56,998 nucleotides of DNA, taken from positions 1-56,998 of the forward strand of contig CACKAJ010000005.1 in assembly GCA_902598125.1 (NCBI GenBank). The letters run 5' to 3'. Below the pieces are notes generated by a model. That model was given only the letters and a program-made list of their open reading frames with translations, made no database searches and had not been told where the DNA came from. Below are positions 26,180-42,525 of the stretch, one piece after another (the stretch's first letter is position 1; each line of letters opens with the position of its first letter). A program made the translations under genes and the position numbers. Source of the DNA: an uncultured Pelagibacteraceae bacterium (GTDB lineage: Bacteria; Pseudomonadota; Alphaproteobacteria; Pelagibacterales; Pelagibacteraceae).

Positions 26180-26256
<77 letters not shown>

Positions 26257-27556: not shown

Positions 27557-28455
27557 TGGAGCTCTACCTCAAATTAATAGATGTAATATTTCCTGTATTC
27601 TTTGTTATTGGAATAGGATTTTATTTAGGGAAAAAAGATCCAAATATAAATACCGATTTAATCACCAATTTTGCTGCGAATATTGGCTCACCAGCTATGA
27701 TATTTTATTCAATTACCACGACAGGGGTAACTCTAAGTATTTTTCTAGAATATTTTGTTTACTCTCTTATTATAATTAGTGCGTTTTCAATAGTAGGTAT
27801 TCTGTTTTTAATTATACTTAAAAAAGATTACATAAGTGAATTACCACCTCTAATCTTACCAAATACGGGGAACATAGGATTACCTCTTTGTTTATTTGCT
27901 TACGGAACTGCTGGGTTAGGTGTAGCTTCAGCTATTGCATCTGTTGTTATTCTTTTACACTTTACTATTGGAGTTTTATTAGCGAAAAAAAGCTTTTCAC
28001 TCAAAATATTAATTAAAAACATGCCAATTTATGGAATTTTAGTTTCTATATTATTTTTATACTTCGAATGGAGTGTTCCAGGTTATGTAGAAAACACAAC
28101 ATTTTTATTAACATATGCAACTATTTTTTTAATTTTAATGTCTCTTGGAATTGCTTTAGCTAAATTAAAAGTAGTTTCATGGACACATGCATCAATACTA
28201 GGGGCTGTTAGAGTAATTATTGGACCTCTAATAGGATTTGGATTAATTAAATTTTTTAATTTAAATGGTTTTGCTGCTGGAGTTCTTCTAATTCAATCTT
28301 GTATGCCAAGCGCCGTTCTAACTTATTTGGTTGGTTCAATGTACTCAGATAGAAGGGTAGTTGATAGCGTAGCAAGTGTTATTGTGACATCTACCGTTAT
28401 GTCTTTTATAACTATCCCAATTGTAGTTTATTTTAGTCTAAGATATTTTCAATAA
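27556..28455 (+). CDS. AEC-family (auxin efflux carrier-like) permease
   Basis: A 299-residue membrane protein with about ten hydrophobic segments in the two-bundle arrangement of AEC transporters. Recognisable sites are FPVFFVIGIGFYLGKK at the N-terminus, the first helix-break motif LPNTGNIGLPLCLFA, and a second near QSCMPSAVLTYLVGSMY. Family members move small carboxylates or amino-acid-related compounds, but the substrate cannot be told here. The stop codon is followed by the AT-rich gap and a perfect hairpin. Confidence 0.88.
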   Translation: MELYLKLIDVIFPVFFVIGIGFYLGKKDPNINTDLITNFAANIGSPAMIFYSITTTGVTLSIFLEYFVYSLIIISAFSIVGILFLIILKKDYISELPPLILPNTGNIGLPLCLFAYGTAGLGVASAIASVVILLHFTIGVLLAKKSFSLKILIKNMPIYGILVSILFLYFEWSVPGYVENTTFLLTYATIFLILMSLGIALAKLKVVSWTHASILGAVRVIIGPLIGFGLIKFFNLNGFAAGVLLIQSCMPSAVLTYLVGSMYSDRRVVDSVASVIVTSTVMSFITIPIVVYFSLRYFQ

Positions 28456-28509: not shown

Positions 28510-28541
28510 TTATTTACATATTTTATAAAAAATGTAAATAA
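28510..28541. terminator. Perfect 10-bp inverted repeat downstream of the AEC permease
   Basis: TTATTTACAT (28510-28519) is exactly complementary to ATGTAAATAA (28532-28541), with a 12-base loop that can pair further (TTTT/AAAA). It lies 54 bases after the permease stop. The stem has almost no G-C pairs and no T run follows on the plus strand, so a classical intrinsic terminator is doubtful; a protein-binding or element-end palindrome is the alternative. Confidence 0.4.
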
Positions 28542-28867: not shown

Positions 28868-29143
28868 CTAGAGGCTTATACCCTCTTTTTTAAGTAAAAA
28901 TCTCTTTGTTTTTATGCCTCCTTTGCCTGAATAGCCTCCAAGCGATCCGTCAGATCTTATAACTCTATGGCAAGGTATTTTGGGAGCATAGGGGTTTTTT
29001 CCTATAGCATTAGCCACAGCACGTGCAGCAAGCGGTTTTCCTATGGCTTTTGCCACTTGAGAGTAGGTTTTAACGCTTCCACGAGGTATTTTCGTCAAAT
29101 AGGCCCATACTTTCAGTTGAAATTTAGTACCTACTAGCTTCAT
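28868..29143 (-). CDS. Methylated-DNA-cysteine alkyltransferase, minimal form
   Basis: A 91-residue protein containing only the C-terminal active domain of O6-alkylguanine-DNA alkyltransferases. The helix-turn-helix region FQLKVWAYLTKIPRGSVKTYS and the arginine-finger stretch AARAVANAIGKNP precede the acceptor cysteine in IPCHRVI (Cys58), then GSLGGYSGKGG. The N-terminal domain of Ada/Ogt is missing. Retention of Cys argues for repair activity over an alkyltransferase-like (Trp-containing) protein. It overlaps the stop of the small upstream gene (TAATG) and opens the accessory region. Confidence 0.9.
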   Translation of the reverse strand: MKLVGTKFQLKVWAYLTKIPRGSVKTYSQVAKAIGKPLAARAVANAIGKNPYAPKIPCHRVIRSDGSLGGYSGKGGIKTKRFLLKKEGISL

Positions 29144-29334
29144 TAGTCAAAGATTAAGTAAATCGTTAGAGATAAGCCTACTATAAGGGCTATTATTAAG
29201 CCAATAGCTATCATTTTTTTGCCTTTTGAGCTTGAGTTAGTCCAGAAGTAGGAAATTCCATAAACAGCAGCTATAAATACTACTATAGGAAGTATAAATT
29301 TAATCATTATTTCTAAAATTATACGTATTGACAT
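29143..29334 (-). CDS. Small two-span membrane protein, unknown
   Basis: A 63-residue hydrophobic protein with two membrane segments (about residues 12-30 and 42-60) separated by a short polar loop, SSSKGKK. A second ATG at 29307 would give a 54-residue version beginning MIKFILPIVV, which also looks natural. I do not recognise a family. The stop overlaps the start of the alkyltransferase gene by one base, so the two are likely translated together. It diverges from the integrase gene, with the dyad repeat in between. Confidence 0.55.
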   Translation of the reverse strand: MSIRIILEIMIKFILPIVVFIAAVYGISYFWTNSSSKGKKMIAIGLIIALIVGLSLTIYLIFD

Positions 29335-29351
29335 CTAAAATCACTTAATAT

Positions 29352-29386
29352 ATTACTAATGATAATTAATTGTTATCAATAGTAAT
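29352..29386. repeat. 14-bp imperfect dyad with 7-base spacer ahead of the integrase
   Basis: ATTACTAATGATAA (29352-29365) and TTATCAATAGTAAT (29373-29386) are reverse complements at 13 of 14 positions, separated by TTAATTG. The right arm ends three bases before the integrase ATG, covering its translation-start region. Two arms of 11-14 bases around a 6-8 base spacer is the layout of tyrosine-recombinase core sites, but an autoregulatory operator would look the same. No second copy was noticed in the window. Confidence 0.5.
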
Positions 29387-42467: not shown

Positions 42468-42484
42468 AATAAAAACTTAAAAAG

Positions 42485-42514
42485 AAAGGCCTAGTGAGAA
42501 TTCACTAGGCCTTT
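42485..42514 (-). terminator. Perfect 13-bp hairpin between binding-protein and permease genes
   Basis: AAAGGCCTAGTGA (42485-42497) is perfectly complementary to TCACTAGGCCTTT (42502-42514) around a GAAT loop. In the reverse-strand transcript the stem is followed by a U-rich tract (CTTTCTTTTTAAG). Its position just after the binding-protein stop fits a partial terminator or a 3' mRNA-protecting stem, a common device to make more binding protein than membrane subunits. It is the strongest hairpin noticed in the window. Confidence 0.85.
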
Positions 42515-42525
42515 TGATATTTTTT

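Follow-up and report, generated by a model that had tools for sequence, protein, structure and literature searches.

Single-recombinase dif systems are known from streptococci and lactococci (XerS/difSL) and from Helicobacter and Campylobacter (XerH/difH); in both, the site has inverted arms and lies near the gene. A dif beside the gene is regarded as a possible hallmark of such systems, FtsK serves both XerS and XerH, and the archaeal XerA works without FtsK (PMC5357621). The XerL/dif system of the Legionellales also has a single recombinase, and was described in a lineage first reported to be without dif/Xer; there the dyad lies near the terminus, and a copy is also present on the mobile element LME-1. 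The Legionellales provide a precedent for an overlooked single-recombinase system being found via a dif-bearing mobile element (PMC9765430). Pelagibacter ubique has no dif/Xer system according to Carnoy and Roten, who cite it as a case of dif/Xer loss during genome reduction in a free-living bacterium (PMC2731167). Among open-licence papers, covered mostly at the level of their titles, we found neither a SAR11 dif/Xer system nor a pelagiphage dif mimic.

The locus described here lies in a stretch of 56,998 nucleotides (the window) on a contig of a 1.02-Mb draft genome, and all 80 named loci nearest to it by recombinase belong to the Pelagibacteraceae (SAR11). A tyrosine recombinase gene is directly preceded by an inverted repeat (Table 1), and the arrangement resembles the systems above in having a single recombinase, a site near its gene and inverted arms, XerS, XerH and XerL being likened to it by description. 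There are also differences. The centre spans 7 bp in SAR11, as against 11 bp in difSL and 6-10 bp in difH (PMC5357621), and the enzymes are 304-318 residues long, as against 354-362 for XerS and XerH. The SAR11 site abuts the gene, whereas the neighbourhood of the Legionellales dif varies (PMC9765430). With XerC/XerD/dif the locus shares an AT-rich palindrome, inner ATAA/TTAT and the presence of the FtsK gamma domain, but there is one recombinase rather than two, the centre is 7 rather than 6 bp, and the enzyme falls outside the XerC/XerD group. The closest non-SAR11 relatives that we found are single tyrosine recombinases of plasmids (Alicyclobacillus, Paenibacillus, Protochlamydia, Iodobacter and others); unlike the SAR11 enzymes these are plasmid-borne and presumably serve multimer resolution, and the outer arms and centres of their sites differ. 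By analogy, the SAR11 system would work like XerS, XerH or XerL, while its descent looks different.

We consider it probable that the dyad and the recombinase form a single-recombinase chromosome-dimer-resolution module (dif plus recombinase) of SAR11; on this best reading, the module would stand where XerC/XerD/dif stand in other bacteria. We infer for it binding, cleavage, dimer resolution and control by FtsK. The inverted arms would be occupied by two recombinase protomers, which would contact GATAA/TTATC together with an outer part that differs between lineages. Synapsis of two sites on a chromosome dimer, followed by strand exchange across the asymmetric 7-bp centre, would yield monomers, with activation probably by the FtsK gamma domain, which is seen in most of these genomes.

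Table 1. Features of the recombinase locus, in window coordinates, and the related phage dyads
Feature	Position	Strand	Basis
Promoter-like TTGACA (29328-29333), 17 bp, TATTAC (29351-29356)	29328..29356	+	Consensus match; overlaps left arm
Left arm of dif-like site, ATTACTAATGATAA	29352..29365	+	Inner GATAA identical in 41/41 distinct 35-mers
Asymmetric central region TTAATTG, presumed strand-exchange region	29366..29372	+	Centre counts in 136 loci
Right arm, TTATCAATAGTAAT	29373..29386	+	Inner TTATC identical in 41/41 distinct 35-mers
Tyrosine recombinase, 317 aa	29390..30343	+	PF00589 E=2.8e-21; catalytic R, K, H265, R268, H291, Y300
Methylguanine-DNA methyltransferase-like protein, conserved upstream neighbour (context only)	28868..29143	-	PF01035; 60/60 full-length named loci
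Phage dyads of both SAR11 arm types, some tandem	Viral L128-L156, L281-L434; pelagiphage L185, L437, L440, L444		

The original prediction described a dyad with 14-base arms matching at 13 of 14 positions, a 7-base spacer and an end three bases upstream of the recombinase ATG (29390). This is confirmed at 29352-29386, which reads ATTACTAATGATAA / TTAATTG / TTATCAATAGTAAT with 13 of 14 arm pairs complementary, as is the asymmetry claimed for the spacer. Dyad symmetry alone is only modestly unusual, and proves little. Dyads of 13 of 14 with spacers of 3-12 number six in the window, a single hairpin accounting for three of these as alternative registers, whereas the 60 Markov-simulated windows hold 1.05 on average; with a spacer of 7 there is one against 0.13 expected from the same simulations. 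A single GATAA-N7-TTATC core is present in the 57-kb window. Elsewhere in the window a strong hairpin at 42484-42515 (GAAAGGCCTAGTGAGAATTCACTAGGCCTTTT), between two minus-strand genes, is terminator-like, and a 13-of-14 dyad at 28510-28541 (TTATTTACATATTTTATAAAAAATGTAAATAA), just past a gene ending at 28455, is probably a terminator.

The decisive point is comparative conservation, which raises the dyad far above chance. The prediction had been made to depend on conservation of the repeat beside homologous integrases, and GATAA-N7-TTATC is present upstream of the recombinase in all 136 orthologous SAR11 loci (the window; L010-L038 without L028; L040-L119; L157-L183), among which some genomes are counted twice, being present in two collections, and in which the sites were located by this same pattern. 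Four loci were dropped before this count: L028 (gene start missing), L002 and L003 (the window again) and L184 (weak match). In 124 loci the dyad stops 0-12 nt short of the ATG, in 11 it runs 1-5 nt beyond the alignment-inferred start, and in one it stops 56 nt before the start. The 136 loci reduce to 41 distinct 35-mers, and the centre is TTAATTG in 97 loci, TTAATGG in 31 and something else in eight. Across the 80 named loci, which were chosen as closest relatives, the mean majority-base frequency of the 35-bp block is 0.986, and that of flanking 20-bp blocks is 0.54, 0.73 and 0.84 upstream and 0.79 and 0.76 downstream.

Orthologues of about 51-66% identity mostly have the arms TTCCGATAA/TTATCGGAA, which replace ACTAAYGATAA/TTATCAATAGT. 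At arm position 7, 23 of the 41 distinct sites have A/A and 18 have T/T; at position 8, 18 have C/C. In divergent lineages the arms switch together while core and spacer stay, and such joint change of both arms is expected if one protein reads both. The proposal that the dyad is a tyrosine-recombinase crossover site is well supported.

Alignment to E. coli XerD, together with invariant columns, indicates that the R-K-H-R-H-Y active site is complete in the window protein. The K column is R in the two divergent SAR11 members shown in the XerD alignment. A structure model of the protein was unusable (mean pLDDT 38.4), and its alignment was shallow (29 sequences, 82-93% identical to the window).

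Could the dyad instead be only an operator, through which the recombinase represses itself, with recombination occurring elsewhere or not at all? We regard this as unlikely. The left arm does overlap the -10 part of a promoter match, TTGACA-N17-TAT, that is found in 107 of the 136 loci, and the dyad ends at the start codon. However, an asymmetric 7-bp centre is not something that an operator has to preserve, yet 128 of 136 loci retain TTAAT[TG]G; phages have dyads with these arms away from recombinase genes, before the terminase; and a dif beside the gene is characteristic of single-recombinase systems (PMC5357621). The autoregulatory operator put forward originally survives as a plausible side role: because the dyad overlaps the promoter match, the recombinase may also restrain its own transcription through it.

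If the dyad and recombinase are a dimer-resolution module, the presence of XerC/XerD-like proteins, the position of the site and the occurrence of FtsK are all of interest. All 11 single-contig genomes carry the recombinase orthologue, and eight of these are without any other PF00589 protein. The other three (G109, G136 and G227) have one further PF00589 frame of 345-450 residues, without XerC/XerD-like scores, and the PF00589 search of the 11 genomes gave no match of XerC/XerD strength (strongest E 6e-24). Among 24 genomes from another family of the order, 18 have exactly two PF00589 proteins, five have one and one has three, mostly at E 1e-39 to 1e-48, and the paired proteins are read as XerC and XerD; no match in the window's family is as strong. 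The distance from the GC-skew terminus to the site is 52 kb (3.9% of genome length) in G116, 28 kb (2.4%) in G105, 14 kb (1.1%) in G109, 17 kb (1.4%) in G110, 103 kb (7.0%) in G115 and 263 kb (20.1%) in G228, the skew being taken from sampled 20-kb stretches of these six single-contig genomes rather than from complete sequences. The weakly fitted genomes are G115 (p 0.205) and G228 (p 0.085), the latter being the genome with the distant site. In five of six genomes the site lies at most 7.0% from the fitted terminus (Fisher p 0.0015, with the sampled skew weak in two genomes). The FtsK gamma domain (PF09397) is found in 35 of 41 genomes, including that of the window.

In the phylogeny, ten SAR11 proteins form one group (100/100) among plasmid and viral recombinases, and a split (100/100) separates this group from the E. 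coli proteins XerC and XerD as well as from four members of another family of the order, with bootstrapping not fully settled. Five viral rows that were long or odd (L299, L315, L341, L349 and L387), present in another tree, were left out, as was the unannotated plasmid locus L506. The recombinase scores 74.7 bits against TIGR02225 (cut-off 329.6) and 64.6 bits against TIGR02224 (cut-off 335.15). Judged by tree and profile scores, neither of which indicates XerC/XerD orthology, the recombinase is not an Xer orthologue and is of the plasmid/phage recombinase type. Because it groups with plasmid and phage recombinases and not with XerC/XerD, the SAR11 system has the look of a plasmid-type resolvase recruited for a chromosomal job.

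Related recombinases are present in 2458 plasmid records at E 1e-8 or better, with up to 43% identity, while phage records gave seven weaker matches. Ten plasmid loci, drawn from the best 20 of the 2458 matching records, were inspected for upstream dyads. A GATAA-N6/7-TTATC dyad precedes the gene in five (Protochlamydia, Iodobacter, Hymenobacter, Sporosarcina and A. acidoterrestris), an imperfect dyad lies upstream in two (Aureimonas and Methylomonas), and no upstream dyad was found in three (Alicyclobacillus acidocaldarius, Paenibacillus and Salinibacter). Pairing extends to 12 of 12 in Protochlamydia, 11 in Iodobacter and 10 in Hymenobacter and Sporosarcina, and the dyads of Aureimonas and A. 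acidoterrestris are, by symmetry alone, no better than shuffled sequence. On the Protochlamydia plasmid pPNK (L501), perfect 12-bp arms (AACGTTCGATAA) flank a 7-bp centre 109-79 bp before the recombinase gene. Among 27 dyad-bearing viral loci of higher GC, a recombinase frame is present in 15 and absent from 12 on the piece seen, and in 12 of the 27 a possible start codon of the recombinase frame follows the dyad by 2-41 nt. By these comparisons, the gene-plus-site module is one that extends beyond SAR11.

The plasmid records, and the similar sites carried by phages, could also be taken to mean that the module is a resident recombination system used chiefly for something else, e.g. plasmid resolution or acting on phage DNA. 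We find this rather improbable, given chromosomal retention in streamlined genomes without XerC/XerD and the terminus-proximal position in five of six genomes (by sampled skew).

Copy number bears on whether the site belongs to a mobile element. The pattern CGATAATTAATKGTTATCG, with up to two mismatches, has a match in 121 of 143 family genomes (the window's own and others of about 90% completeness or more); 117 of the 121 have exactly one match and four show additional two-mismatch matches, while the reversed control matches six of the 143. With any centre and at most one mismatch, the ACTA-type site is found in 190 of 387 genomes and the TTCC-type site in 94 of 397, with a maximum of one per genome and no match to the reversed control in either scan. 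The recombinase is present in all 25 site-bearing genomes examined, and the orthologue is single copy per family genome and monophyletic in the tree. Among the 22 of 143 genomes without a pattern match, G183 and G216 do have gene and site; of the remaining 20, G113 has a weak partial recombinase match and 19 have no orthologue. Seventeen of these 20 are without any PF00589 match and three have only one frame, of 430-464 residues. The site-less drafts include G106, G111 and G113, at 96-99% completeness, and either the assemblies break at the locus or some lineages do without it.

The 143-, 387- and 397-genome scans revealed no bounding second site on any chromosome searched. The second copy that was to be looked for under the original prediction does exist in phages, none being found on host chromosomes, and two of the functions then suggested, the attachment core of an element and a switch that inverts or excises DNA, are not supported. 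Because only one site per genome was found and the upstream neighbourhood is fixed, an invertible switch or an island attachment site was rejected as an account of the dyad. An attachment site of an integrative element or genomic island in this region, which borders glycosyltransferase genes, with the gene as its integrase, is very improbable: the recombinase is of mobile-element type and some downstream genes vary (an FkbM gene in 10/60 loci and a heptosyltransferase-like gene in 7/60, but glycosyltransferase-like sequence in 54/60), yet the upstream neighbours are retained in 60/60 full-length loci, the single-copy orthologues form one tree group, and paired att sites were not found. A tRNA gene as attachment target was likewise set aside, the nearest (26180-26256) being about 3 kb off and without a link to the site. 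In HTCC1062, an integrase (SAR11_0551), possibly the orthologue, is listed in HVR2 (PMC2217521).

Turning to viruses, a scan of IMG/VR with TTCCGATAA-N7-TTATCGGAA returned at least 120 stretches, and the ACTA type 50; a single control, a composition-matched palindrome with G and C swapped, had no match. We collected 183 viral loci and dropped from the counts 17 without a strict site. Of the 139 low-GC loci taken with a strict site, near-duplicates included, 93 have a terminase; the dyad precedes it by 267-553 bp in 87 of these and stands elsewhere in six. Matches to the HTVC010P terminase at E 1e-10 or better were obtained for 94 of the 139, and median identity to the best named phage is 83%. 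A recombinase gene is present on three of the 139. Among cultured pelagiphages the dyad is clear in Greip, HTVC035P, HTVC100P and HTVC106P, marginal or partial in HTVC024P, HTVC034P, HTVC010P, HTVC204P, Skadi-4 and Lederberg, and not above background in HTVC203P, HTVC028P and a Methylophilales phage with a related terminase.

Both arm types may stand in tandem. An ACTA-type dyad (score at least 23 of 28) lies at most 110 bp away in 23 of 78 distinct TTCC contexts, and a TTCC-type dyad (at least 15 of 18) lies nearby in 21 of 38 ACTA contexts; with shuffled flanks there were no tandem partners for either. The arms of the phage sites match those of the host strictly, and the centre matches in part. 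The centres are related to the host's but mostly different: TTAANNG is found in 52 of 82 distinct low-GC TTCC contexts, and a common host centre in seven of the 82, always TTAATTG. Several phage isolates have 6-bp centres, and the centres of ACTA-type phage sites resemble the host's less.

These sites recall IMEX (the CTX, VGJ and TLC phages, GGI and LME-1), in that the phage has its own version of the host site, with a centre that partly differs, and the recombinase gene is absent on nearly all pelagiphage pieces seen. Unlike those of IMEX, the pelagiphage sites precede the terminase, sometimes combine the two arm types in tandem, and were not seen in integrated form. We found no phage integrated at the host site, and no genome with two TTCC-type (397 genomes) or two ACTA-type sites (387 genomes) at up to one mismatch, in a search for 7-bp centres between arms of one type. 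Pelagiphage-like terminase genes are present in eight of 397 SAR11 genomes (including G209 C1, G387 C9, G399 C8, G277 C7 and G166 C12), and the stretch around the gene in these eight host loci has no dyad above background. The G209 terminase is in a 399-kb contig and is probably that of a prophage; G166 C12 has a 430-aa recombinase frame of its own. Phage integration at the SAR11 dif is thus not supported by the double-site scans or by the terminase-positive host loci.

The most likely reading is that the phages use the host enzyme via their dyads, whether for processing of phage DNA or for transient integration. Processing is favoured over integration because the centres differ and lysogens are missing; the enzyme may act on the phages' own genomes, in concatemer or dimer processing. 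Tandem host arm specificities would let one phage suit hosts of either type. The joint proposal, that SAR11 dimers are resolved by a domesticated plasmid-type resolvase which HTVC010P-like pelagiphages recruit via dif mimics, is more tentative, and we would not quite give it an even chance.

SAR11 bacteria rank with the most abundant cells of the ocean. A conserved pair of site and recombinase would overturn the view of this group as lacking dif/Xer; if true, the dimer-resolution function was replaced rather than lost, by an enzyme from the plasmid world, and the dyad is a defined site open to testing.

Some further viral loci deserve mention. The only viral relative obtained from peptide patterns (L039) has a 352-aa integrase frame that matches over a short stretch only, and was set aside. 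A recombinase frame lies directly behind a TTCC- or ACTA-type dyad on a number of other viral contigs, mostly GC-rich (L299, L302, L306, L308, L313, L322, L324, L341, L348, L349, L390, L418 and L323). In L320 (positions 299-2697), two recombinase-like frames, both weak matches, are convergent, and one TTCCGATAA-N7-TTATCGGAA dyad lies between their ends.
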